A stretch of 45,109 nucleotides of DNA from an uncultured Eubacterium sp. (GTDB lineage: Bacteria; Bacillota; Clostridia; Lachnospirales; Lachnospiraceae): NCBI GenBank assembly GCA_947384955.1, contig CANDJC010000027.1:1-45109 (forward strand), written 5' to 3'. Positions 1-45,109 of the stretch are shown here, piece by piece. How positions within the stretch are numbered: position 1 is the stretch's first letter; each line of letters opens with the position of its first letter. Under the pieces are notes generated by a model. It was given only the letters and a program-made list of their open reading frames with translations. It did not search any database and was not told the origin of the DNA. The translations under genes were made by a program, and so were the position numbers.

Positions 1-110
1 CGTCCCGTCCGGGGCCACAGCGTAAATGCAGAACGCTTAGGGATTCTTAACATTCTGGAGCAGCCGCAGGAAGACCGTGCAAATCCCCTCTCCCGGCGTC
101 CGAGGGGCCA
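1..110 (-). repeat. Structured intergenic repeat, copy R1 (cut by window start), core type B
   Basis: This is one arm of the long palindromic repeat described at R2-R7. Read on the minus strand it begins with the conserved GGACGCC edge (about 96-104), then an outer-stem arm at 64-96 closely related to that of R6, then the inner arm at 28-55 with the conserved CTAAG followed by CGTTCTGC, then the conserved core start near CGGACGGGAC. The partner arms lie before the window. It sits 12 bp past the stop codon of the small membrane protein gene, so it could lie in that operon's 3' untranslated region. Confidence 0.75.
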
Positions 111-3029: not shown

Positions 3030-3117
3030 TAGAGGACGCATTATTTATAGAAAGGAAAATTTCTAAAAAATTTCAAATCTTATGAATATCTTTTGGGAAA
3101 GCGTCTATACTATAAGT

Positions 3118-3230
3118 AATCCGAAGATGACTTTCCCCCAAAGCAGACTTCGGATTGCATGCAAAAGATACAATAAATACTTTATCCTCCCCCAATTGAA
3201 AAGCTGCCTTCGGGCAGCTTTTCTTATTTT
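3118..3230 (+). ncRNA. Candidate small RNA with C-rich loop and strong terminator
   Basis: No ORF fills this gap, but it has the layout of a small RNA. A possible -10 TATACT lies at 3106-3111 (no convincing -35). Hairpin 1 has 9 perfect pairs (3118-3126 with 3148-3156) and encloses a second stem CTTT/AAAG closing a loop of five C (3135-3139). A single-stranded stretch CCTCCCCC (3186-3193) follows, complementary to Shine-Dalgarno sequences. It ends with a textbook terminator (11 pairs, TTCG loop, T-rich tail). Exposed C-rich stretches resemble those of Gram-positive regulators such as RsaE. Expression and target range are unproven. Confidence 0.45.
3198..3230 (+). terminator. Intrinsic terminator with TTCG tetraloop
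   Basis: GAAAAGCTGCC (3198-3208) pairs with GGCAGCTTTTC (3213-3223) around a TTCG loop, followed by TTATTTT. No upstream plus-strand protein gene needs it, which supports a short untranslated transcript ending here. Confidence 0.8.
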
Positions 3231-3346
3231 CCGGGCGGAACTGGTCAGGATTGGGAATTTAAACTACAGATTCATTGATTTTCTGATATAAATCAGATAT
3301 AATGAATTCAGCTGGCCGGCAATTTCATATAAGAGAGGGATAAAGC

Positions 3347-4015
3347 ATGGGAAGTGAAGATATCGCATATCAGAACAAAGACATAACAAGCAAAATGCTG
3401 GCGGAAAATTTCAAAGGGAAATCATTTCGTGTTTATGGTCTGAACATACCGCCGGTCAGAAGGGCAGAGCCGACAAATATCCCTGCTGTAAAGGCAAATG
3501 AACTCCGTATCGATAATCTTTTTGAGCTTGCGGACGGTTCTGCAGCTATTGTAGATTATGAAAGTGATTATGATAAAGCCGATAAGATAAAATATTTAAA
3601 TTATCTGGCGGGAATCGCCAGCCGTTATCAGAATCAGAAAAAACAATGCCCGATACTGCGCATGATTGTAATCTATACAGGTGACGTTCAAAGGAGTACC
3701 GTATCGTCTGTATACGATATTGGAGCAGTAAAAGTAAATGTGGAGCCTGCATTATTGTCAGAGCTGGATGCGGAAAGTATCTTTGAAAGACTGCATGAAA
3801 AAGTGGAAAAAAAGCAGCGTCTTACAGATGAGGAACTGATGGAACTGATAATTCTTCCGCTTTCCTACCGCAGAAAAGAAGATAAAAAACGTCAGATACG
3901 TGAAAGCGTCAGACTTGCAGCAAAAATTCAGGATAGAAACCAGCAGATTTTTACACTTGCCGGTATACTTGCATTTACTGATAATTTGTATGACGAAGGT
4001 GGCAAGTCTGTTTGA
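3347..4015 (+). pseudogene. N-terminal part of a PD-(D/E)XK-like (Rpn-type?) protein, frameshifted
   Basis: 222 residues that start MGSEDIAYQNKDI, contain the stretch ELRIDNLFELADGSAAIVDYE (residues about 52-72) resembling the Asp...Asp/Glu core of Rpn-like/putative transposase nucleases, and break off at DNLYDEGGKSV. The next frame continues without a gap as a coiled-coil repeat region (3990-4475). I read the two as one gene of about 1.13 kb broken, or switched, by a one-base shift near 3990-4010. GAGAGGG precedes the ATG. Family assignment is tentative. Alternatives are a real truncated product, a programmed +1 frameshift, or a sequencing error. Confidence 0.55.
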
Positions 4016-4475
4016 GAATGAAAAGCAGGAAGCACTGACAAAAGTGGCAAGACTATTTGAGCTGGAAAAACAGGAAGCGCTGACGAAGGCGGCAAGGCAG
4101 TATGAAGAAGATAAGGAGAAAGCGCTGACGAAGGCGGCAAGACAGCATGAAGAGGAAAAGCAGAAAGCGCTGACGAAGGCGGCAAGACAGCATGAAGAGG
4201 AAAAACAGGAAGCGCTGACGAAGGCGGCAAGACAGCATGAAGAGGAAAAACAGAAAGCGCTGACAGAGGCGGCAAGGCAGTATGAAGAAGACAAGGAAGA
4301 AGCGGTGGAAAAAGAGAAACAGAAGGCTGCAGAATCGTATAAACATATTGTGATAAGCATGATTCAGAAAAATTATACAACAAATGAAATTGTTTCGCTT
4401 GTTACGGATTATTCCCGTGAACAAGTTGATGCTTTACGGAAGTCTGTGACAGCGGATACAAAGGATGCACAGTAA
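3990..4475 (+). pseudogene. C-terminal coiled-coil repeat part of the same frameshifted protein
   Basis: In the frame +1 to 3347-4015, an open frame runs from ATG 3990 to the stop at 4475 (161 residues). It opens with VASLFENEKQ, then six 15-residue repeats of the pattern EALTKAARQHEEEKQ, then a C-terminal region with YKHIVISMIQKNYTTNEIVSLV that looks like the ordinary end of Rpn-type proteins. No ribosome site precedes ATG 3990, so independent translation is unlikely. The repeats would form a long charged helix. Confidence 0.5.
4029..4298 (+). repeat. Six tandem 45-bp coding repeats
   Basis: Units start at 4029, 4074, 4119, 4164, 4209 and 4254, each 45 bases coding 15 residues (E/K-A-L-T-K-A-A-R-Q-x-E-E-E/D-K-x). 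Units 3-5 are nearly identical at DNA level, so copy number can change by slippage or recombination without losing frame. Confidence 0.9.
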
Positions 4476-8249: not shown

Positions 8250-10217
8250 ATGCAGATTAAATTAAAAGACGGAACAGTGAAAGAATACGATAAAGCTATG
8301 TCCGTATATGATATTGCAAAAGATATCAGCGAAGGGCTTGCACGCGTGGCATGCGCCGGAAATGTAAACGGGGAAATCGTTGATTTGCGGACGGAAATTT
8401 CAAATGACTGTGAGCTGAATATCGTTACCGCAGACAGCAAAGAAGGATTAAAGGTCATCCGTCATACCGCTTCCCATGTAATGGCGCAGGCTGTGAAACG
8501 TCTGTTTCCAAATGCGAAGGTCGCAATCGGCCCGGCAATTGAAGACGGCTTTTATTATGATTTTGACAGCGAGCCTTTTTCCAGGGAAGATTTGGACAAA
8601 ATTGAATCTGAAATGAAAAAAATTATCAAAGAAGGCCATGCGGTTACAAGGTTTACGCTTCCAAGAGATGAGGCTATTGCTTATATGAAGGAACGCGAAG
8701 AGCCTTATAAAATAGAGCTGATTGAAGACCTGCCGCAGGGCAGTGAGATTTCTTTTTATGATCAGGGCGGTTTTGTAGATTTATGCGCAGGCCCTCATTT
8801 AATGTCAGTGAAAGGAATCAAGGCTTACAAGCTGATTTCTTCGTCCATGGCTTACTGGAGAGGCGACGAGCACAAAGCACAGCTGCAGCGTATTTATGCG
8901 ACAGCGTTCAATAAAAAAGACGAGCTGGCGGCTTATCTGGAACATCTGGAGGATATGAAAAAGCGGGATCACAACAAGCTGGGCCGTGAAATGGAATTAT
9001 TTACAACGGTAGATGTGGTCGGCCAGGGACTCCCTCTGTTTGCTCCAAAAGGCACAAAAATGATTATGAAGCTTCAGCGCTGGATTGAAGATTTAGAAGA
9101 TAACGAGTGGGGCTATGTGCGTACAAGGACGCCTCTTATGGCGAAAAGCGATTTGTATAAAATTTCCGGCCACTGGGATCATTATAAAGAAGGAATGTTT
9201 GTGCTCGGAGATGAAGAGACAGACAAAGAAGTGTTTGCACTCCGTCCGATGACATGCCCGTTTCAGTATTATGTATACAAAAATACACAGAAGTCATACC
9301 GCGACCTTCCATACCGCATGAGTGAGACATCGACGTTATTCCGTTCGGAGGATTCCGGTGAAATGCACGGTCTGACGCGCGTACGCCAGTTTACCATTTC
9401 CGAAGGCCATCTGGTCATCCGTCCGGACCAGGCAGAAGAAGAGCTGACCGGGTGCCTGAATCTGGCCAACTATACGCTGTCAACGCTCGGGCTGCAGGAA
9501 GACGTGACCTACCGGCTTTCAAAATGGGATCCGGATAACCGGGAAAAATATCTGGGTGATGAAAGGTACTGGGAATCCACACAGGATGCCTTGCGCAAAA
9601 TTCTTACCGAGCAGAAGCTTCCGTTTGTCGAAGCTGACGGAGAAGCAGCGTTCTATGGGCCGAAAATCGACATACAGGCAAAAAATGTCTATGGAAAAGA
9701 AGATACCATGATTACCATTCAGCTGGACTGTGCAATCGCTGAAAATTTTGACATGTATTATATTGATGAAAACGGTGAGAAAATACGTCCGTATATTATT
9801 CACAGGACATCTTTAGGCTGCTATGAGCGCACGCTCGCCTGGCTGATTGAAAAATACGCCGGAAAATTCCCTACCTGGCTGTGTCCGGAACAGGTACGTG
9901 TGCTGCCGATTTCCGATAAATACAACGCATATGCAGCAAAAATAGAAGCAGAATTAAAGAAAAACGGCATTGACGCGGCCGTTGACAGCCGCTCTGAAAA
10001 AATCGGGTTTAAAATCCGCGCAGCAAGGCTTGACAAACTGCCGTATATGCTGGTAGTCGGACAGCAGGAGGAAGCAGACGGCACGGTTTCGGTACGCAGC
10101 CGTTTTGCCGGAAATGAAGGCGTAAAACCGTTAGCGGAATTTATCGAACAGATTTGCCGGGAAATCCGTACAAAAGAAATCCGAAAGGAACTGCCGGAAG
10201 AAGAAAAAGCAAGATAA
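8250..10217 (+). CDS. thrS: Threonyl-tRNA synthetase
   Basis: A 655-residue class II synthetase that charges tRNA-Thr. Domains in order: TGS (1-60), the editing domain with HxxxH (HTASHVMAQAV, from about residue 72) and the distal Cys/His (CAGPH), the catalytic core with MTCP and the class II motif 2 arginine (FRSEDSGEMHGLTRVRQF), HRTSLG in motif 3, and the C-terminal anticodon-binding domain. The variants MTCPF and TISEGH mark the clostridial ThrRS subgroup instead of the MNCPHH/TQDDAH type. AGGAG precedes the ATG. No T-box leader is present, unlike many Firmicute thrS genes. Confidence 0.96.
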   Translation: MQIKLKDGTVKEYDKAMSVYDIAKDISEGLARVACAGNVNGEIVDLRTEISNDCELNIVTADSKEGLKVIRHTASHVMAQAVKRLFPNAKVAIGPAIEDGFYYDFDSEPFSREDLDKIESEMKKIIKEGHAVTRFTLPRDEAIAYMKEREEPYKIELIEDLPQGSEISFYDQGGFVDLCAGPHLMSVKGIKAYKLISSSMAYWRGDEHKAQLQRIYATAFNKKDELAAYLEHLEDMKKRDHNKLGREMELFTTVDVVGQGLPLFAPKGTKMIMKLQRWIEDLEDNEWGYVRTRTPLMAKSDLYKISGHWDHYKEGMFVLGDEETDKEVFALRPMTCPFQYYVYKNTQKSYRDLPYRMSETSTLFRSEDSGEMHGLTRVRQFTISEGHLVIRPDQAEEELTGCLNLANYTLSTLGLQEDVTYRLSKWDPDNREKYLGDERYWESTQDALRKILTEQKLPFVEADGEAAFYGPKIDIQAKNVYGKEDTMITIQLDCAIAENFDMYYIDENGEKIRPYIIHRTSLGCYERTLAWLIEKYAGKFPTWLCPEQVRVLPISDKYNAYAAKIEAELKKNGIDAAVDSRSEKIGFKIRAARLDKLPYMLVVGQQEEADGTVSVRSRFAGNEGVKPLAEFIEQICREIRTKEIRKELPEEEKAR

Positions 10218-12300: not shown

Positions 12301-13242
12301 ATGGGATTTAATCATATTCCGGTACTGCTTCAGGAAACAGTCGCACAGTTAAATATTAAGCCTGACGGAATTTACGTGGACGGGACTTTAGGCGGCGGGG
12401 GACATGCTTACGAGGTGTTAAGCCGCCTGTCTGACAAAGGACGGTTTGTCGGCATGGACCAGGATGCGGATGCCATACAGGCAGCCAGCGTGCATTTAAG
12501 GGAATTTGAAGACCGTATGACCATTATCCGCAGCAATTATGCAGATATGCCGGCACAGCTTCGAACACTCGGCATAGAAAAAGCAGACGGAATTCTCCTG
12601 GACCTGGGTGTGTCGTCGTTTCAGCTCGATACGCCGCAGCGCGGATTTTCCTACCGGGATGAAGATGCACCGTTAGACATGCGTATGGATGACAGACAGC
12701 AGTTAACAGCAAAAGATATCGTGAATGAGTATAGTGAGAAAGAGCTCTTTCGTATAATTCGCGATTTTGGGGAAGACAAATTTGCGAAAAATATTGCAAA
12801 GCACATCGTAAATACAAGAAGAGAAAAAGAGATTCTTACAGCCGGGGAGCTGTGCGCGGTCATCCGCGGCGCAATTCCCATGAAGGTGCAAAAGACGGGC
12901 GGACATCCGGCCAAACGGACTTTTCAGGCGATTCGCATTGAGTTAAACCGCGAACTGGAGGTACTAAAGGACAGCCTGGACGGCATGATAGACCTTTTAA
13001 ACGACGGCGGACGGATTTGTGTGATTACGTTTCATTCTCTGGAAGACCGCATAGTAAAAACGATTTTTAAGAAGAATGAAAATCCATGCATATGTCCTCC
13101 GGATTTTCCTGTCTGTACCTGTGGCAGGGTATCCAAAGGCAGCATGCTAAAAAAGCCGATTGTACCATCTGAAGAAGAATTGAATAATAATAAACGTTCA
13201 AAAAGCGCTAAGCTTAGAGTGTTTGAACGGAAGGAGCATTAA
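12301..13242 (+). CDS. rsmH: 16S rRNA (cytosine-1402-N4)-methyltransferase
   Basis: A SAM-dependent methyltransferase (MraW/RsmH) modifying C1402 in the ribosomal P site. Visible are [10 protein letters not shown] at the start, the SAM loop [41 protein letters not shown], and the C-terminal [10 protein letters not shown] chose ATG 12301 (313 residues) because homologues begin 2-5 residues before H-x-x-VLL. A GTG at 12265 in the same frame would overlap mraZ by 14 bp and add 12 residues. Neither has a strong ribosome site, so translational coupling to mraZ is possible. Confidence 0.95.
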
Positions 13243-15990: not shown

Positions 15991-17751
15991 ATGAATGGGA
16001 CAAAAACACATAACCGCAAAAAAATCGTGACCGTATTTTTCTGCATCTTCCTTGTTATGCTGTTTTTAGCAGGAAGGCTTGTGTATCTGATGGTTTTCCA
16101 GTCGGTATATTACAGCGCGAAGGCACAGGATCTGCATGAAAGAGAGCGCGATATCAAAGCAGCGCGGGGCAAAATTTTAGACATCAACGGCAAGGTGCTC
16201 GCATCAAACCGCAGTGTCTGTACCATTTCTGTCATACACAGCCAGATAAAAGAGCCGGAGCGTGTCATCAAAGTGCTCTCGAAGGAACTGGACATGGATA
16301 CAGAAACCATCCGCAAGCGGGTAGAAAAGTACAGCTCCATCGAGCGGATTAAGTCGAATGTTTCTAAAGAAACCGGAGATAAAATACGGGATTATAAGCT
16401 GGACGGCGTGAAAGTCGACGAAGATTATAAAAGGCATTATCTCTACGGCTCGCTTGCCTCAAAGGTGCTTGGGTTTACCGGAGGCGATAACCAGGGAATC
16501 ATCGGGCTTGAAGTCGTCTATGATGATAAAATGATGGGTACAAACGGCAAAATTTTAACACTGACGGATGCACGAGGCGTGGAGCTTGCAGATGCGGGAG
16601 AGACAAGGCTGAACCCTGTGGACGGAAACAACCTGCGCATCAGCCTGGATTATAATATCCAGATGTATGCCCAGCAGGCAGCTGAAAAAGCCATGCAGGC
16701 CAAAGAAGCCGACAGTGTCAGCATTATTATTATGAAGCCTTCCAACGGGGAAATCATGGCCATGGTAAACCTCCCCGAATTTGACTTAAACAATCCTTAC
16801 GAACTGCCCGAAGGCACACAGTATCAAAACCAGCAGGAAAAGCAGAACCTCTTAAATCAGATGTGGCGGAACGGCTGCATCAATGACACCTACGAGCCTG
16901 GTTCGACATTTAAAGTGATTACGGCATCCGCAGCCTTAGAAGCCGGCGTAGTATCGTTAAACGATAATTTTTACTGTCCGGGATATAAAATCGTAGAAGA
17001 CCGCAGAATCCGCTGTGCGCGTACAAGCGGGCACGGCCCGGAAACATTTGTACAAGGGCTGGAAAATTCCTGCAATCCGGTATTTATTGAACTCGGCATG
17101 CGCCTTGGCACGGAGGAATATTATAAATATTTCAGACAGTTCGGCCTTTTATCCAAAACCGGAATTGACCTGCCGGGAGAGGCAAAAACGATTATGCACG
17201 AAAAAAAGAACATCGGACAGGTAGAACTTGCCACGATTTCATTCGGGCAGTCGTTTCAGATTACGCCGGTGCAGCTTGCTTCTACGATTTCTTCCCTGAT
17301 TAACGGCGGAAAACGCGTAACACCGCATTTCGGCGTTCAGGTGGAGGACCAGGAGGGCAATGCCTTGGAAGTGTTTGATTATACACCGAAAAACCAGATT
17401 TTAAGTGAAAAAACATCAAATACGATGCGCAGCCTGCTGGAAAAGGTGGTGTCTGAAGGCGGTGGAAATAAAGCTTATATTGAAGGATATCAGATTGGAG
17501 GAAAGACGGCTACTTCCCAGACGCTGCCGAGAAGTGCGCACCGTTATATTTCTTCTTTTATGTGCTTCGCACCGGTGGATGAGCCGCAGGTTTTGTGCCT
17601 GGTGATTATTAATAATCCTACCGGGGTTTATTACGGGGGGACGATTGCGGCGCCGGTGGCTAAGGAGATGTTTTTGAATATTCTGCCTTATCTGGGGATT
17701 GAGAGGGATATGTCGCAGGTTACAAAGGAGGGTGGAACGGAGGAGGAGTGA
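15991..17751 (+). CDS. Class B penicillin-binding protein, second copy (SpoVD-like)
   Basis: A 586-residue transpeptidase related to its upstream neighbour. One membrane helix lies at about residues 9-30, then the dimer domain (AARGKILDINGKVLASN) and the transpeptidase domain with S305-T-F-K (SxxK) and S-C-N. The third motif reads K505-T-A-T where KTG is nearly universal, so Gly is replaced by Ala507. No PASTA domain. The start is fixed by GAGG at 15979-15982. Tandem class B PBPs here suggest one for division and one for sporulation; which is which cannot be told from sequence. Confidence 0.9.
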   Translation: MNGTKTHNRKKIVTVFFCIFLVMLFLAGRLVYLMVFQSVYYSAKAQDLHERERDIKAARGKILDINGKVLASNRSVCTISVIHSQIKEPERVIKVLSKELDMDTETIRKRVEKYSSIERIKSNVSKETGDKIRDYKLDGVKVDEDYKRHYLYGSLASKVLGFTGGDNQGIIGLEVVYDDKMMGTNGKILTLTDARGVELADAGETRLNPVDGNNLRISLDYNIQMYAQQAAEKAMQAKEADSVSIIIMKPSNGEIMAMVNLPEFDLNNPYELPEGTQYQNQQEKQNLLNQMWRNGCINDTYEPGSTFKVITASAALEAGVVSLNDNFYCPGYKIVEDRRIRCARTSGHGPETFVQGLENSCNPVFIELGMRLGTEEYYKYFRQFGLLSKTGIDLPGEAKTIMHEKKNIGQVELATISFGQSFQITPVQLASTISSLINGGKRVTPHFGVQVEDQEGNALEVFDYTPKNQILSEKTSNTMRSLLEKVVSEGGGNKAYIEGYQIGGKTATSQTLPRSAHRYISSFMCFAPVDEPQVLCLVIINNPTGVYYGGTIAAPVAKEMFLNILPYLGIERDMSQVTKEGGTEEE

Positions 17752-17815: not shown

Positions 17816-18110
17816 TGCGCGGACGCTGGATGGAGATACTTTTTCCTTCTGCAGTTCCGTTTCCGAAAAGTAAGAAGTTCTAAGTTTTCTGCGTCGGGGT
17901 TTTGGTACCGGACGGACCGGCGCCTGATGCCCTGGCTTTACTGGCTGGGTTTAGACTGTGGCTTTGGCAGGCGCCTTTTGGGGACTTCATAGTTTTCGAA
18001 AAAGGAAGGATGCGAGTCCCCAAATCCTGGGTTTTGAGCAGAAAACTAAGAACTTCTAACTTTTCTCCAAAGTCACTGCAGAAGGAAAAAGTATCTCCAT
18101 CCAGCTGATA
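17816..18110 (+). repeat. Structured intergenic repeat, copy R2, core type A
   Basis: Conserved edge GCGGACGC, then an outer stem of 29 perfect pairs (17826-17854 with 18076-18104). An inner stem follows (17871-17892 with 18038-18059) in which both arms carry CTAAG, giving fixed mismatches. The core has two branches: GGCGCCTG...GGCAGGCGCC, and TTGGGGACT closing on AGTCCCCAA before ATCCTGG. The edge CCAGCTGAT closes the copy. No ORF and no T-run. Confidence 0.88.
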
Positions 18111-18610
18111 TTGGAAGAATTTAGGCGGCAGATGAGGAAGATGTGGGATTTTTGAGGATTTTGAAAAGGAGGAGTGCTGAGAGGGAACAAGAAGGTGTCT
18201 CTATCTGGCTGAAAGAGAAAAAAGTTGCAGGAAGTGGAAGCTGTGAGATTTTGGGGATATCAAAAAAAGGAATATCCGGCTGGCATTGGAAGAAAATAAG
18301 TGGAAGGAAGCAGAAGCTGTAAGATTTTGAGGGTATCAAAAAAGGGAAGATTAGAAGAACCAAGAAGGTATCTCTATTCAGCCGGCATTGGGAGAATTTT
18401 AGAAGGAGGAAGGGAGAGCAGAGGAATTTTGAGGATATCAAAAAGGCGGAGTGAGGGAAGATTTGGAGAACATATCACTATCCGGCTGACAGAGAAAGAA
18501 TATGGGTGACAGAAAGGGAAATCAGAAGGATTTTGAGAATTTTGAAAAGAAGAATGGCAGAGAGGGACCAGGAAGGTATTTCTATTCAGCTGAAAGTGAA
18601 GGAAACAGAA
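18091..18610 (+). repeat. Degenerate ~100-bp tandem array, purine-rich
   Basis: About six diverged units start near 18091, 18195, 18271, 18367, 18471 and 18574. Each opens with a relative of GTATCTCCATCCAGCTG and continues with ATTTTGAGGATATCAAAAAGG and AGAAGG-rich sequence. The opening matches the right edge of repeat R2, so the array seems to be seeded from, or to have donated, that edge. The plus strand is strongly A/G-rich. Minus-strand frames here are open only because they read the pyrimidine-rich strand. Downstream to 18880 the DNA is AT-rich with nothing I recognise. Confidence 0.7.
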
Positions 18611-18879
18611 TAGCGGGAAAAAACGGAAAGACTTCAGAGACTTTTGAAAGGATATTGAGCAGTACAGCATAGAGTTCACAATATAGAACAAAAATATTTA
18701 ATCTCTCTTAAAATTATAGCAAAAGACTGAATATAAGCAGAGAAGACTGGCGGCATGAAAAAACTTTTCAATATCCATAATATGTAAAATATAAGCATTC
18801 TATATTATCAATTAAAGTTATATCATAATTATAAAATTAGAATACCTAGCCTCAGACACGAAGCGTAAATCCTGAGAAA

Positions 18880-19175
18880 ACCAGCCGGATAAGCGGGTCT
18901 GCCTTGTCTCAGTGTGACTGTGGAGGAATGTTAGAAGCCCTTAGTATTCTGCTCAGCAGCCAGGATTTGGGGACTCACAGCCTTCCACTTTCAAAATCTT
19001 TGAAGTCCCCAAAAGGCGCCTGCCAAACCCACAGCCTAAATCCAGCCAGCAACGCCAGGGCATCAGGCGCCGGTCCGTCCGCAGCCACAGCCTGGACGCA
19101 GAATACTTAGGGCTTCTTACATTCCTCCACAGTCACACTGAGACAAGGCAGACCCGCTTATCCGGCGTCCGTGCA
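18880..19175 (-). repeat. Structured intergenic repeat, copy R3, core type A
   Basis: The longest stem of the family: 18885-18952 pairs with 19098-19165, 68 positions with only two mismatches. Both mismatches fall where the other copies also mismatch (TAAG/TAAC and CTAAG/CTAAG). The core repeats the type A branches (GGCGCCTGATGCCCTGGC, TTGGGGACTTCA). The outer stem sequence is of the same type as R4, not of its close neighbour R2. Confidence 0.9.
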
Positions 19176-19303
19176 GCCAATTCCCCATCCCCAGCCATCC
19201 AGCACCCGCGCAGCCATCCCCCAAATCCTTCCCCCGCACATCCAGTGCCTCATTCCAGCACCCCCTTAAAATAAGAAAGGAGCTGATTCTGTCTGATTGC
19301 CTC

Positions 19304-19332: not shown

Positions 19333-19377
19333 TAGTTTTTAGGCAACAGCATGACAAATGAAAGAGGGATAAAGATA

Positions 19378-20346
19378 ATGACACAGCAGCTGATTGATTT
19401 TCGCTACATTTTTGCAGTAATTGTCGCATTTGCGGTCACGGCTCTTCTAGGGCCATTGATGATACCGCTCTTACGAAGGCTGAAGGTAGGAAACACCGAA
19501 CGCGAAGAGTTAAAATCACATCAAAAGAAAACAGGCACGCCGACCATGGGGGGACTGATGATTTTAACGGCAGTGATTATTACTTCGCTGTTTTTCATAT
19601 CCTCCTATCCGAAAATCATACCGATTTTATTTGTGACTGTAGGATTTGGGGTAATTGGATTTTTTGATGATTATTTGAAAGTCGTATTAAAACGTTCGGA
19701 TGGTCTTTTTGCATGGCAGAAAATGATTCTGGAAATTGTAGTCACTGCGATTTTTGCTATATACCTGGCCAGGTTTTCGGATGTGCCGCTTACGATGCTG
19801 ATTCCGTTTTCCGGGGGAAAGTATGCAGATTTTGGCTGGCTTGCGCTGCCGATTCTGTTTTTAGCAGTGATAGGGACGGTTAACGGGGCTAATTTTACGG
19901 ATGGTTTAGACGGGCTTGCTTCGAGTGTGACTGTGTTAATTGCAACATTTTTTTCGGTGGTAGCGATTGGCACAAACAGCGGGATTGAACCGATTACATG
20001 TGCTGTTACCGGAGCACTGCTTGGATTTTTGCTGTTTAACGTATACCCGGCCAGTGTTTTTATGGGAGATACCGGTTCTCTGGCGTTAGGAGGTTTTGTA
20101 GCATCTGCCGCGTATATGATGCAGATGCCGATGTTTATTCTGATTGTGGCTTTGATTTACTGGGTAGAGATTTTATCGGTCATGATTCAGGTAGGGTATT
20201 TTAAGCTTACACACGGAAAACGGATTTTCCGCATGGCTCCGATTCATCATCATTTTGAGCTGGGCGGCTGGTCTGAGACGAAGGTAGTGGCAGTATTTTC
20301 GATTATTACAACGCTTTTATGCCTGGTCGCATATATGGGACTTTAA
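19378..20346 (+). CDS. mraY: Phospho-N-acetylmuramoyl-pentapeptide transferase
   Basis: 322 residues, ten predicted membrane helices. It transfers phospho-MurNAc-pentapeptide to undecaprenyl phosphate, making lipid I. Family motifs are KKTGTPTMGG (cytoplasmic loop), GFFDDYLKV (DDxxK, catalytic Asp pair), NGANFTDGLDGLA (Asp nucleophile region), and APIHHHFELGG near the end. I chose ATG 19378, preceded by AGAGGG; an in-frame ATG at 19351 lacks a ribosome site. Confidence 0.96.
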   Translation: MTQQLIDFRYIFAVIVAFAVTALLGPLMIPLLRRLKVGNTEREELKSHQKKTGTPTMGGLMILTAVIITSLFFISSYPKIIPILFVTVGFGVIGFFDDYLKVVLKRSDGLFAWQKMILEIVVTAIFAIYLARFSDVPLTMLIPFSGGKYADFGWLALPILFLAVIGTVNGANFTDGLDGLASSVTVLIATFFSVVAIGTNSGIEPITCAVTGALLGFLLFNVYPASVFMGDTGSLALGGFVASAAYMMQMPMFILIVALIYWVEILSVMIQVGYFKLTHGKRIFRMAPIHHHFELGGWSETKVVAVFSIITTLLCLVAYMGL

Positions 20347-23821: not shown

Positions 23822-25039
23822 TTGCTTGAAATTACAACAACGGAAGCAGATTCCAGTGCAAAAATCATTGTTATCGGAGTCGGTGGGGCAGGTAACAATG
23901 CAGTAAATAGAATGATTGACGAAAATATCGGCGGCGTAGAATTCGTCGGTGTAAATACAGATAAACAGGCCCTGATGCTTTGCAAAGCGCCTACTCTGAT
24001 TCAGATTGGCGAAAAGCTGACGAAAGGGCTCGGAGCAGGGGCAGACCCGGAAGTAGGAATGAAAGCTGCAGAAGAAAGTGCGGACGAGCTGTCTGCTGCC
24101 GTAGAAGGGGCAGATATGATTTTTGTTACCTGCGGCATGGGCGGCGGCACCGGAACAGGCGCAGCTCCGGTCGTAGCAAAAATAGCCAAGGATAAAGGGA
24201 TATTAACAGTTGGTGTCGTGACAAAGCCATTTACATTTGAGGCAAAAGCCCGCATGGTCAACGCGATATCGGGCATTGAGCGCTTAAAAGAAGGCGTAGA
24301 TACTTTAATCGTAATTCCGAATGACAAGCTGTTAGAAATCGTAGACCGCAGAACAACCATGCCGGATGCCTTGAAAAAAGCAGACGAAGTGCTTCAGCAG
24401 GGTGTACAGGGTATTACAGACCTGATTAACCTGCCGGCTTTAATTAACCTGGACTTCGCAGATGTGCAGACCGTTATGAAGGACAAAGGACTGGCACATA
24501 TCGGAATCGGACAGTCGAAAGGCGATGAAAAGGCAATCGAAGCTGTCAAGCTGGCTGTTTCATCCCCTCTGCTGGATACGGATATATGCGGCGCTACGCA
24601 TGTGATTATCAATATTTCAGGGGCAATTTCCCTGCTTGATGCGAACGATGCGGTCGGATATGTGCGCGACTTAGTCGGGGAAAATGCAAATATTATATTC
24701 GGGGCAAAATACGATGAGTCACGCTCTGACGAGGCTACGATTACCGTTATCGCTACCGGAATCGAGGATGTAGAAACCCAGCCGGCTCCTTCCCTGATGC
24801 CAGGCATGACGGGACTGAAATACGCAAATGCCGGGACAGGCATGAACCGTCCTTCACAAGGGGCATTCTCGCCGCGTCCGAGTGCTGCCGGGACCGTGCA
24901 GACGGGCGGCTTTACAATGAATACGGGGGGTGCTGCATCGCAGCCGGTATACGGGATTAATAAGCCGAAAAAACCGGAAAGCTCTGTTCCTGTGAGGGAT
25001 ATTAAAATTCCTGGTTTTCTGCAGAATCCGAAGAAGTAA
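23822..25039 (+). CDS. ftsZ: Cell-division GTPase FtsZ
   Basis: A 405-residue tubulin homologue that forms the Z ring. The tubulin signature GGGTGTG is at residues 107-113, the NTDKQAL loop is present, the GTPase T7 loop (NLDFADV) is complete, and the C-terminal peptide ends in DIKIPGFLQ, the usual binding site for FtsA/SepF. A Gly/Ser/Pro-rich linker lies at about 325-385. The start is TTG 23822 with AAGGAGG 9 bases upstream; no in-frame ATG occurs before residue 31. ftsA is absent from the cluster. Confidence 0.97.
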
Positions 25040-25256: not shown

Positions 25257-25549
25257 TCGGACGCTGGATAAGTGTGTCTGCCCTGTCTCAGTGTTCCGTT
25301 ACAGAATGTAAGAAGCCCTAAGCATTCTGCATCGAGGCAGTGGCTGCGGACGGACCGGCGCCTGATGCCCTGGCGTTACTGGCTGGGCATACTTAGTGGT
25401 GCTGGCAGGCGCCTTTTGGGGACTTCAGAGTTTTTTCCGGCTGCAGGCACTGCGTCCCCAAATCCTGGGTATTGAGCAGAATGCTAAGGGCTTCTAACAT
25501 TCTTCCACAGTCACACTGAGACAGGGCAGACACACTTATCCAGCTGGTT
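25257..25549 (+). repeat. Structured intergenic repeat, copy R4, core type A
   Basis: Outer stem 25264-25293 pairs with 25514-25543, 30 of 30. Inner stem 25304-25330 pairs with 25476-25502, 25 of 27, with mismatches at the same two places as in R3. Core type A as in R2. Outer stem is of the R3 type (GGATAAG...TCTGCC...TGTCTCAGTG). The preceding gap 25040-25256 holds nothing I recognise. Confidence 0.9.
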
Positions 25550-25568
25550 TTCGCGGGGTTTCAGAGTG

Positions 25569-25630
25569 TCAGACAAACCGCCGCCAGACATTCCATAATC
25601 AGACAAACTGCCGTCAGACAATCTAAAACC
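25569..25630 (+). repeat. Two direct copies of a ~30-bp unit between R4 and R5
   Basis: CAGACAAACCGCCGCCAGACA is followed about 31 bp later by CAGACAAACTGCCGTCAGACA. They fill most of the 100-bp spacer between the two inverted structured repeats. Role unknown. Confidence 0.5.
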
Positions 25631-25643
25631 TGAATTCTATCGA

Positions 25644-25940
25644 AATCAGCTGGATGGAGAAACTTTTTCCTTCGGATGTGACTTTGGAGAAAAATTAGAA
25701 GTTCTTAGTTTTCTGCTCACCACCCAGGATTTGGGGACACACTGTCTGCCTCCATAGAAAACCATGAAGTCCCCAAAAGGCGCCTGCCAGTGTCACTGCA
25801 TAACCCCATCCAATAACGCCAGGGCATCAGGCGCCGGTCCGTCCGCAGCCACTGCCTGGATGCAGAAAACTTAGAACTTCTTATTTTTCGGAAACCGGAA
25901 CATCCGAAGGAAAAAGTTTCTCCATCCAGCGTCCGCGAAG
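25644..25940 (-). repeat. Structured intergenic repeat, copy R5, core type A
   Basis: Outer stem 25650-25678 pairs perfectly with 25901-25929 (29 bp). Inner arms again carry CTAAG on both sides, with the GTTTTCTGC variant as in R2. Outer stem sequence is of the R2 type (GGATGGAGA-ACTTTTTCCTTC). Core type A. It ends about 45 bp before the spoIIGA promoter. Confidence 0.9.
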
Positions 25941-26056: not shown

Positions 26057-26869
26057 GTGGATGCAATATATGAAGTTTACATAGATGTGCTGGCGCTGAA
26101 CAATTTTTTTGCAGATTTAGCAGCTCTTCTGGCGGTCAATATTTTTTTAAGAAGAAGAGTGCGTGCGCACCGCATTTTAGCAGGAGCCGTGCTTGGAACA
26201 GCCGCAAGCTGTGCCGTGTTCATATTTTCAAAGCAGATGGCGGCTTATCTGCTGCTGGTGCATTTTGCTGTAAATCCTGCTGTGATTGTGTTTTGTTTTC
26301 GGGAAAAAACGAAACAGGATTTTTTTGCAGACCTTTGTGCAGGTTACTTTGTATTTCTTCTAATGGGAGGGATAACCGAGTGGCTGTATGAGGGAGGAAA
26401 CGGCTTGTTTTCTTATAAAATGGCGCTTTCTGCGGCTCTGATTCTGCTGTTTGCCGCGGTATGCTGGATAAAAAAGCAGCTGAAAAACCGTGTCCGTTAT
26501 TTTGAAGCACAGGTCAGCCAGAAAGGGAAAAAGATTCGGATAAAAGCGCTTTCGGACAGCGGCAACCTGCTGCGTGACCCTTATACAGGAAAGGCTGTGA
26601 GCATGATTGACCGCAGGGTTTATGAAACGGCGTTTGGCAGGGCAGGGGCGGTGCGGCTGATACCATACGAATCCTTAGGATGCCGGCACGGACTGCTCGA
26701 AGCAGTGACAATTGAGGAATTATGCTATGCATATGGAAGCTGCGAAAAGAAGATTCAAAAGGCTGTGCTGGGACTGGCAGACCATGCATTGTTTGAAAAG
26801 AAACCATATCAGATAATCATAAATCCACAGGAAAATCCAACAGGAGGCAGGTATGAGAAGGACGGATAG
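26057..26869 (+). CDS. spoIIGA: Sporulation sigma-E factor-processing peptidase
   Basis: A 270-residue membrane-bound aspartic protease that cleaves pro-sigma-E at the septum. About five N-terminal helices ([19 protein letters not shown] at the start) are followed by a cytoplasmic protease domain with the motif D167-S-G-N-x-L-x-D-P. The predicted start is GTG 26057, but the best ribosome site (GGAGG, 26053-26057) overlaps that codon. No better in-frame start exists before the first helix, other than a non-standard ATA at 26066. It overlaps sigE by 17 bp, as usual for the spoIIG operon. Confidence 0.92.
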
Positions 26870-34228: not shown

Positions 34229-34481
34229 GGCGCGGACGCCGGAAGAGGGGATTTGCCCGGTCTTTCTGCGGCTGCTCCAGAATGTTAAGAAGCCCTAAGC
34301 ATTCTGCGGTTACGCTGTGGTAACGGACGGGACGCGGCACCTATTCGCCCTGGCTGAATGCCAGCAGCTACCGGTGCCGCTTCGGCTTCGCCGCCTGGTT
34401 ATAGAGCAGAATGCTAAGGGCTTCTAAACATTCTTCCAATGCCGCAGAAAGACCGGGCAAATCCCCTCTTCCGGCTGATTT
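34229..34481 (+). repeat. Structured intergenic repeat, copy R6, core type B
   Basis: Outer stem 34239-34271 pairs perfectly with 34442-34474 (33 bp) and resembles that of R1. The inner stem has CTAAG on both arms (GAAGCCCTAAGCATTCTGC, and GCAGAATGCTAAGGGCTTC). The core differs from type A: CGGACGGGACGCGGCACC, a GGTGCCGC return arm, then a CGGCTTCGCCGCCTGG hairpin. It begins about 30 bp after the histidine kinase stop. Confidence 0.9.
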
Positions 34482-34489
34482 CGTAAAGT

Positions 34490-35300
34490 GCTGCGTGTGA
34501 CATTTTGGAGGCAGAGAGGGTGGTTTTTGTGATAGGCAGATGGGGGTGCGGTGATGAGGTGTTTATGGTGGCTGTAAAGTAACACCAGTTTACAAGTTTT
34601 TGATTAGGTACAAGATGTAGATTCAATTATCATGGCTGTGTGCAATATCTAGCCTGGATTTTATAAAAACAACAGTTTAAGCGGATATTTATCCATAAAT
34701 TTAGTGATTATGCGGCTTTGTAAACAAGAGCTTGGAAAAAATGGGGAGACTCGAAAGAGTTCTGGGTTTTAAAAAATACGTGCAATTAGAAAATTTGTAA
34801 TCGATGGATAAAGCATACAAATGCGCCTTACCTGGCTGAGAATGCAGAGATTTCTGGGGAGGTTTTAGGTTTTCAGAGTTACAGGGAAGCAGGGGATTTT
34901 TAATCGGTCTGCTGTCTTTTATGCTTTTTAACTGGAATCTGTGAGCATTAAAGTGAATTGTCAATATTCTATTCTTTTCGGACAGAAGTGAAAGCTTATC
35001 ACAGCCAGTTTTGTAATATTGCCGATTTTCATCTAAATGAAGTTCTGCAAATGTGAAACTAAAAACAGGCCACCCATCATCTAATCCCAAACTTCCGTCT
35101 AAAATACATAAATTCTTCCTTCCAGTCTTTTCATGCAACACTATAATAACAGTTCAGTCCCCCCCATTCACGTTCAAATGCTGACCTCTATAGCATTTAA
35201 GCATTTACACACCGTATGTTTATCATGAAACTCTCCTAAGCGCCAGCGACACTTAAAAAGCACCAGCAACCCAGCTTACTGAGCGTATGTAAAACCTTTC
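34490..35300. other. Gap between R6 and R7: no confident gene
   Basis: About 0.8 kb without a convincing gene. A minus-strand frame of 146 codons (35141-34701) has a plausible protein-like first half (ILDGSLGLDDGWPVFSFTF) and then degenerates. It lacks a good ribosome site and recognisable family. It may be remnant coding DNA trapped between two inverted repeats. No tRNA, transposase or promoter pair was found. Confidence 0.4.
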
Positions 35301-35303
35301 AAT

Positions 35304-35558
35304 AACCAGCCGGATGATGGGAAGATGTCCTGGCTTTCGGTGACATTGGAGGAATGTTTAGAAGCCCTTAGCATTCTGCTATAAAACCAGGCGGCGAAGC
35401 CGAAGCGGCACCGGTAGCTGCTGGCATTCAGCCAGGGCGAATAGGTGCCGCGTCACGTCCGGTGCCACAGCGTAACCGCAGAATGCTTAGGGTTTCTTAA
35501 CATTCCGGAGCCGTCACCGAAAGCCAGGGCATCTTCCCGTCATCCGGCGTCCGCGCCG
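35304..35558 (-). repeat. Structured intergenic repeat, copy R7, core type B
   Basis: Outer stem 35310-35344 pairs with 35513-35547, 33 of 35, with the two exceptions being G-T pairs when read as the plus-strand RNA. Inner arms keep CTAAG on both sides with one extra mismatch. Core type B as in R6. The outer stem sequence is a fourth type, not shared with other copies here. Confidence 0.9.
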
Positions 35559-45034: not shown

Positions 45035-45109
45035 GGACGCCGGACGGGAAAATTTTTTCCTTCTTATGTTCCGCTTCCAAAAAGCAGGAAGTTCTAAGTT
45101 TTCTGCGGG
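45035..45109 (+). repeat. Structured intergenic repeat, copy R8 (cut by window end)
   Basis: Left part only: edge GGACGCCGGA, an outer arm with TTTTTTCCTTCTTATG (related to R2/R5), then the inner arm GGAAGTTCTAAGTTTTCTGC. The core and right arms lie beyond the window. It sits in front of the XRE regulator gene. Confidence 0.75.

Follow-up and report, generated by a model that had tools for sequence, protein, structure and literature searches.

Long palindromic elements of the TwoAYGGAY kind form divergent pairs in an uncultured Eubacterium genome and are candidate mobile DNA

The genome of an uncultured Eubacterium sp. carries hundreds of palindromic elements of roughly 250-300 bases in its intergenic gaps, usually as inverted pairs. 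They are probably copies of a mobile palindrome that is non-autonomous, related to TwoAYGGAY, and works like a giant REP or REPIN dimer. We studied these elements starting from a window of 45,109 nucleotides, which is one whole contig (G000:C27) of the organism's own 5.06 Mb draft genome (271 contigs). A mobile palindrome was one of three guesses made in a first-pass annotation of this window, and it is the best supported of the three. The paired design of the elements and the templating of their arms are well supported. Sequence comparison at two sites, together with copy number, supports mobility, and a single-strand mechanism and a mobilizing enzyme are inferred.

Architecture and relation to the TwoAYGGAY family

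Eight palindromic copies, six of them complete, had been claimed for the window, and all are present with long, near-perfect, covarying stems. The terminal pairs are likewise as described: CTGG with CCAG in R2, R4, and R5, and CCGG with CCGG in R3, R6, and R7.

R1, positions 1 to 101, plus strand: right half of a copy truncated at the contig end; right arm class C-like
R2, positions 17821 to 18107, minus strand: long-core element, stem class A, with an RF01731 match at 17859-18071
R3, positions 18882 to 19170, plus strand: long-core element, stem class B
R4, positions 25259 to 25546, minus strand: long-core element, stem class B
R5, positions 25647 to 25934, plus strand: long-core element, stem class A
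R6, positions 34234 to 34477, minus strand: short-core element, stem class C
R7, positions 35307 to 35552, plus strand: short-core element, stem class D
R8, positions 45035 to 45109, minus strand: right arm of a copy truncated at the contig end; class A-like

On its proper strand, a full element consists of a GTAAA box about 17 nt upstream, AAAACCAG, and an outer stem (about 35 bp), followed by an internal loop (GGA opposite GGA). The inner stem has 7 + 22 positions, includes two T.T mismatches, and encloses a core of two small hairpins. The matching arms and GCGTCC follow, often with a C run about 10-25 nt further on. Fixed tags flank the stem (CAG at the 5' side and GCGTCC at the 3' side), and the GGA/GGA purine loop is conserved. 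Cores are of two types: those of R2-R5 are long, at about 145 nt, and those of R6 and R7 are short, at about 98 nt. The structure derived from 33 short-core copies has helices of 35 and 27 pairs. Of 86 sampled elements, 84 carry both end tags on the called strand and none carries them on the opposite one, so the strand calls rest on more than the T.T positions. Two short-core elements (L019, about 12758-13063; L035, about 9100-9404) have roughly 160 extra nt between the inner arms.

The first-pass annotation held that these elements have no recognized name. This proved incorrect for R2, which matches Rfam RF01731 (TwoAYGGAY, clan CL00106) at 76.1 bits against a gathering cut-off of 43. The other five full copies and the truncated R1 and R8 have no Rfam match at E <= 1, but they share the arms, ends, and layout of R2. 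TwoAYGGAY is therefore a known family, yet most copies in the window are beyond the reach of the Rfam model. In the organism's own genome, where 63 of 229 candidates were scored, at least 10 matches exceed the cut-off and one falls just below it. Matches above the cut-off occur in at least 7 of 31 genomes (its own and 30 relatives) and in none of 14 control genomes, with the candidates of larger genomes partly scored. Copies in relatives G006, G008, G009, and G016 score 69-109 bits.

The long basal stem and the two-hairpin core of TwoAYGGAY are both found in these elements, and the inner arms are also alike. The differences are that five of the six full copies are unmatched and that none of the six window cores has an AYGGAY terminal loop. 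Among 86 cores from the same genome, 84 have no such loop and 2 have one. AYGGAY words appear twice in each of four G008 cores and once in each of two G009 cores. The elements of G016, which belongs to another genus (L142, L144, and L149-L162), look solitary, and several have AYGGAY loops. Their outer ends read AACTTCC...GGAAGTT, with some outer ends repeated.

In the available published passages, TwoAYGGAY is regarded as an RNA whose function is unknown, and mobility is not mentioned. They cover loops, matches to the CsrA motif, tandem-GA pairs, and structure refinement. They do not describe a longer outer stem with fixed ends, divergent pairs, gain and loss at gene gaps, or templated arms. 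As far as these passages extend, the biology of this catalogued family that we describe is real, striking, and absent from them.

Divergent pairs, spacers, and distribution

The single element had been taken as the unit, which does not hold in this genome, where units are divergent pairs. Each of the three occupied gaps in the window holds a minus-strand element followed by a plus-strand element (R2/R3, R4/R5, and R6/R7). The same (-,+) order was found for all 18 neighbors within 3 kb among the first 100 exact arm matches listed for the genome, and a single (+,+) case appeared among them when the limit was widened to 4 kb. All 32 close pairs among the 86 sampled elements are (-,+) with their CGTC ends outward, and core type is matched in every pair, counting two short cores with the loop insert of about 160 nt. 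RF01731 matches on multi-match contigs, including those of the organism's own genome, gave 13 (-,+) neighbors and 1 (+,+) within 3 kb, a count that leaves out one contig whose matches are 98 kb apart. The exceptions are one (+,+) pair in G006 and the matches in G016, which look solitary. Some copies in the organism's own genome are unpaired, and one of these, at about 15987 in L031, is flanked on each side by a right-hand end, the arrangement expected after two partners lose the sequence between them by deletion.

Partners resemble each other in their cores more than copies from different pairs do. Core likeness within and between pairs is 0.915 versus 0.859 for short cores and 0.895 versus 0.787 for long cores. 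Each of the 10 plain short-core pairs joins unlike stems, which differ at 12-14 of 24 positions (mean 12.9, versus 7.9 for copies from different loci). Long-core pairs follow no such rule, with 7.5 differences within pairs and 6.7 between them.

The spacers of the three window units are as follows.

Spacer R2/R3, positions 18108 to 18881, no strand: 774 bp; carries degenerate repeats at a spacing of 76-104 bp, and stretches like the 5' end of the element recur here (by eye)
Spacer R4/R5, positions 25547 to 25646, no strand: 100 bp
Spacer R6/R7, positions 34478 to 35306, no strand: 829 bp, containing a copy of a spacer-enriched AT-rich repeat

Across 32 units from this genome, spacers range from 84 to 2465 bp. 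They differ from unit to unit, which we count against the mobile-unit reading. Tandem arrays of at least 60 nt are present in 11 of the 32 spacers and account for 15.6% of their bases, compared with 6 of 64 length-matched outer flanks and 1.7% of bases, by a test that misses the degenerate array at 18108-18881. An array is thus rejected as a universal spacer feature. In L021, L030, and window positions 18108-18881, inspection by eye indicated that the repeat unit includes the 5' flank and the first bases of an element. Comparison by blastn revealed a shared match in 61 of 496 spacer pairs, and those inspected correspond to the AT-rich repeat or to short end boxes.

This AT-rich repeat (CACCAGTTTACAAGTTTTTGATT..., with an inverted end) was traced with a 20-nt piece allowing up to 3 mismatches. 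The spacers, 19.9 kb in all, contain 14 matches, spread over 11 of the 32, whereas the remaining 700 kb of sampled sequence contains 7; the reversed control has none. Accordingly, 14 of 21 matches lie in less than 3% of the sampled sequence. Four of the seven matches outside spacers (L017, L020, and two in L035) are located 5' of an element without a listed partner. The repeat may be a second mobile repeat that settles in spacers or a relic of a common inner segment. Its spacer copies are located as follows.

AT-rich repeat in the window: within 34478-35306
AT-rich repeat in other sampled spacers: L019, L025 (two), L028, L031, L033, L127, L131, L132, L136, and L138

Open reading frames of at least 90 aa are present in 5 of the 32 spacers. 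They include a GNAT-like frame in L018 (by eye), one frame in L033, two in L131 (144 and 105 aa), and one of 277 aa in L032; a 98-aa frame in the R2/R3 spacer is taken as chance. Unit L143 of G008 encloses a 427-aa frame, and its flanks read by eye as oligopeptide-transporter components. An autonomous copy within a unit was rejected as none of the spacer frames reads by eye as a transposase.

Copy number was assessed with a 22-nt inner-arm pattern, rather than a covariance model, that includes the two T.T positions and allows several mismatches. At up to 2 mismatches, this pattern has 653 matches in the organism's own genome and none for the reversed control, and at 1.51 matches per sampled element this corresponds to roughly 430 elements. 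The same-genus relatives G001 to G012 have 28, 110, 479, 0, 255, 2, 12, 29, 82, 140, 0, and 0 matches, respectively. Counts are therefore 2-479 in 9 of 12 same-genus relatives, and they are 0-2 in 28 other genomes. The several hundred copies thus belong mainly to a single genus. Among at least 40 named contigs in which the arm pattern occurs exactly, most come from uncultured Eubacterium or Eubacteriaceae assemblies. Carriage by viruses was rejected, because the one exact match in a viral collection is taken as chance.

Distribution along the genome is uneven, with no elements detected in 6 of 10 further 20-kb stretches. Some of the sampled stretches, including four of ten in one sample, come from places where copies had already been listed, and we therefore left densities unestimated. 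Because the core arms serve as the search handle, decayed copies are under-sampled.

Two units of the window lie between genes that could be followed in relatives.

Penicillin-binding protein (PBP) gene, positions 15991 to 17751, plus strand: left of unit R2/R3
mraY-like gene, positions 19351 to 20346, plus strand: right of R2/R3; Glycos_transf_4, with the MraY signature just below cut-off
ftsZ, positions 23822 to 25039, plus strand: left of unit R4/R5
spoIIGA, positions 26057 to 26869, plus strand: right of unit R4/R5

Unit R2/R3 splits the cell-division cluster between the PBP gene and mraY. All 12 same-genus relatives have these genes near each other, and the interval contains no inner arm at up to 4 mismatches (11 gaps were inspected); G010 has a remnant end motif and repeated 3' tails at this site. 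Six relatives cover both ftsZ and spoIIGA; five have 187-309 bp and no element between the genes, and G008 has 789 bp with a canonical-type element of another core type and an apparent decayed partner. The differing element types at shared gaps suggest separate insertions, the alternative being ancestral presence followed by loss. This comparison covers two sites.

Tandem repetition of the element's 3' tail outside the element was seen by eye in L116 of G010 (3060-3470) and in L143 and L145 of G008. A stretch similar to the 3' tail of R3 recurs at about 19197-19222.

Evolution of the stems

Pairing was judged on 33 short-core copies against shuffled copies and slid partners, with the structure derived from the same copies. 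Pairing surpasses that of shuffled copies: 98.6% of 2,427 cells pair, compared with 89.3% after shuffling. Slid partners pair at 37-43%, a control in which taking the structure from the tested copies favors true pairing. Two-sided changes affect 32 of 74 pairs, compared with 17.7 in shuffles.

More information on how the stems change comes from the outer stems, which were not used in the search. Of 83 copies, 55 have an outer stem without any mismatch over 28 bp and 23 have a single mismatch (3 of 86 rows were dropped from this count and from the T.T count below). When 58 stems were compared with their nearest neighbors, 134 positions differed on both sides and 33 on one side, with reciprocal pairs counted twice and 2 of 60 rows dropped. 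Of the two-sided changes, 61 are of transversion type (GC/TA, AT/CG, CG/GC, and AT/TA). The one-sided changes comprise 22 G.T, 6 A.C, and 5 others. Ordinary RNA compensation passes mainly via G.U. Because intermediates are scarce and transversion pairs are common, arm-to-arm copying is favored over stepwise RNA compensation. Template switching is presented as a source of perfect hairpins in the relevant passages of PMC8794818.

Certain mismatches nevertheless persist. The two T.T mismatches are conserved in 83 of 83 and 80 of 83 copies, a conservation that is partly ascertained because the search pattern contains both positions. They are presumably selected, since copying alone would erase them. 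Among residual mismatches in the 83 copies, 23 are G.T and 5 are A.C (p = 0.0009); a looser count that includes the internal loop gives 25 and 14, respectively, with 1 of 60 rows dropped. The excess of G.T over A.C implies that the fold of the TwoAYGGAY strand matters, either as RNA or as single-stranded DNA, although strand-biased mutation could mimic it. The proposal of selection or templated correction for structure is therefore supported: the outer stem leans toward templated correction, with added selection on the mismatches and on one strand.

A probable mobile palindrome and its alternatives

As in MITEs, the elements are non-coding, high in copy number, and gained or lost at orthologous sites (two sites), and the ends of a unit are inverted. 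No parent transposon was seen, and no clear target duplication was found by eye in the flanks of the two gaps or in the sampled flanks. If the elements are mobile, the strand reading ACCAG-stem-CGTCC would fold as single-stranded DNA during replication or mobilization, and a nuclease or transposase supplied in trans would recognize the mismatched hairpin and the unpaired end tags. A polymerase switching from arm to arm would rewrite a mutated arm, such that the stem stays perfect while its sequence drifts. Unlike stems within a pair would probably prevent the two elements from annealing into one giant hairpin that would otherwise be cut or deleted. After insertion, units may in addition be transcribed and affect the ends of messages.

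Several known mobile palindromes resemble these units in part. In CGTC REPs (dRS3), CGTC precedes the hairpin and CCA follows it. Here CCAG comes before the hairpin and CGTC after, and the order thus appears reversed relative to REPs. In the portions of PMC3733652 available, CGTC REPs are palindromes that bear unpaired CGTC at one end and CCA at the other. Most form inverted dimers, which in several families are heterodimers whose stems differ; their spacers vary, no transposase gene is associated with them, and the difference between stems is proposed to guard against cleavage of the hairpins. Our elements have CGTC and CCAG beside the stem, though in an apparently reversed order, and they likewise form inverted dimers in which the members are often unlike, with spacers of variable length and no transposase found. 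However, the REP stems described there are 8-9 bp with a loop of 4-5 nt, whereas those here exceed 60 bp with an internal loop and a branched core, and spacers are 84-2465 bp here versus mostly 20-100 bp. The strings "Firmicutes" and "Clostridi" do not occur in the main text of that paper. REPINs, in the portions of PMC3116915 available, are replicating inverted doublets that are extragenic, show compensatory changes, and leave singlets as remnants. All of these features have parallels here: two inverted palindromes act as a unit, with compensatory changes, extragenic locations, and singlets as remnants. REPINs differ, by the same account, in having short REPs (16-mers) and RAYT genes, whereas the stems here are far longer and counts of Y1 transposases are not linked to the elements. 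Given the longer stems, the branched core, and the apparently reversed tag order, our elements are not members of the REP or REPIN families.

PATEs and IS200/IS605 ends, as far as described in PMC3119063, are similar in having terminal palindromes, no target duplication, and a length too short for a transposase. PATE palindromes are IS605-related, one being given as 22 bp, whereas no such parent was found here. Our searches of the literature on Lachnospiraceae palindromic repeats, bacterial foldback elements, and structured mobile RNAs of the gut found nothing relevant. Eukaryotic foldback transposons have long inverted ends, subterminal repeats, and a variable middle, and parvovirus ends form a T-shaped hairpin with two small arms. 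The likeness to both is one of layout; hosts and enzymes differ.

Candidates for a mobilizing enzyme were also considered. A Y1 (IS200/RAYT) transposase was rejected as the partner because its count is unlinked to the elements (rho 0.02 in 13 same-genus genomes); the organism's own genome has 2 Y1 matches, and G004 has 54 without any element match. No transposase was recognized by eye among the 25 largest families of 1,062 ORFs near elements. These families are mostly dcw and signaling genes, repeated since orthologous loci were included, and three of them are translations of the element itself. One ORF family (7 ORFs at 7 loci, 2 of them within 1.5 kb) reads like an AAA ATPase.

We consider it unlikely, if the strongest of the alternatives, that the TwoAYGGAY fold is a true structured RNA, either cis-regulatory or a small RNA, for example one bound by CsrA at its loops or GGA motifs. 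TwoAYGGAY is filed in Rfam as RNA, and in the passages available its discoverers rated it probably RNA but not cis-regulatory (PMC2864571), while binding by CsrA was proposed from motif matches (PMC4333381). The G.T excess on the TwoAYGGAY strand is also consistent with RNA. CsrA is present in 8 of 10 same-genus genomes with element matches, and CsrA matches correlate with element matches across 13 same-genus genomes (rho 0.56, p = 0.045 uncorrected). However, G006 and G008 (88-89% complete) have RF01731 matches and no CsrA match, and G004, G011, and G012 have CsrA and no element match. With a weak correlation and two RF01731-positive genomes lacking a CsrA match, CsrA was rejected as a required partner. 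Also against an RNA are the hundreds of copies in one genome, which occupy ordinary gaps without preference for gene orientation (co-directional gaps hold 22 of 32 units and make up 114 of 180 background gaps, by simple ORF calls), absence at orthologous gaps, and the lack of AYGGAY in 84 of 86 cores. The 5' flank profile comprises only the GTAAA box and AAAACCAG, with no promoter-like hexamers, and the 61 transversion-type changes are unreachable via G.U. Element-rich genomes of the genus (G000-G012) tend to have extra CsrA-like genes, with up to 6 matches.

Less probable still is that the units are kept as message-end elements, serving as transcription terminators or mRNA 3' stabilizers. Their placement fits this idea: in co-directional gaps, 14 of 22 units lie 19-69 bp past the stop codon of the upstream gene, and 17 of 22 are closer to the stop than to the following start. 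REPs, too, are located mostly downstream of coding regions according to the available parts of PMC3733652. This position may merely reflect the survival of insertions that spare promoters, however, and no T-run adjoins the hairpin in the inspected tails. Convergent gaps are not favored (4 of 32 versus 22 of 180), and a terminator-like orientation bias was rejected from the gap counts. In addition, R4 is located beyond a terminator-like hairpin of ftsZ that relatives have without the unit (by eye).

A DNA site for chromosome organization or replication, acting as an extruded cruciform (bound by a nucleoid protein or forming a fork barrier), would suit large perfect palindromes at high density with no coding content seen in the stems, but it is very improbable given the one-strand G.T excess, which argues against a symmetric two-strand cruciform, element matches from 0 to hundreds within one genus, and the 6 of 10 stretches in which none was detected.

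Returning to the mobile palindrome, a bolder and tentative proposal is that the whole TwoAYGGAY family is self-templating palindromic mobile DNA and not regulatory RNA. Its members would multiply via a folded single strand with arm templating arm, and units of two hairpins with unlike stems would have evolved, as in REP heterodimers, to escape hairpin-cutting enzymes. Each round would restore a perfect stem, and the conserved mismatches would survive as recognition marks. If so, part of the apparent RNA covariation in this family would be a signature of DNA copying. Strong two-sided covariation, usually taken to prove a functional RNA, could then arise at the DNA level in mobile palindromes. 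An identity open to testing is thereby given to an Rfam family that was described in 2010 and whose function is still absent from the published passages available. With hundreds of copies per genome, these elements also provide a system for studying how very long palindromes are tolerated, copied, and corrected.

Two further features were observed in the sampled sequence. The window contains a tandem array at 3991-4352 beneath overlapping ORFs, with a 45-bp unit whose copies are 61-81% alike to the reference copy. In L017, positions 8411-8525 match the FMN riboswitch at 110 bits.
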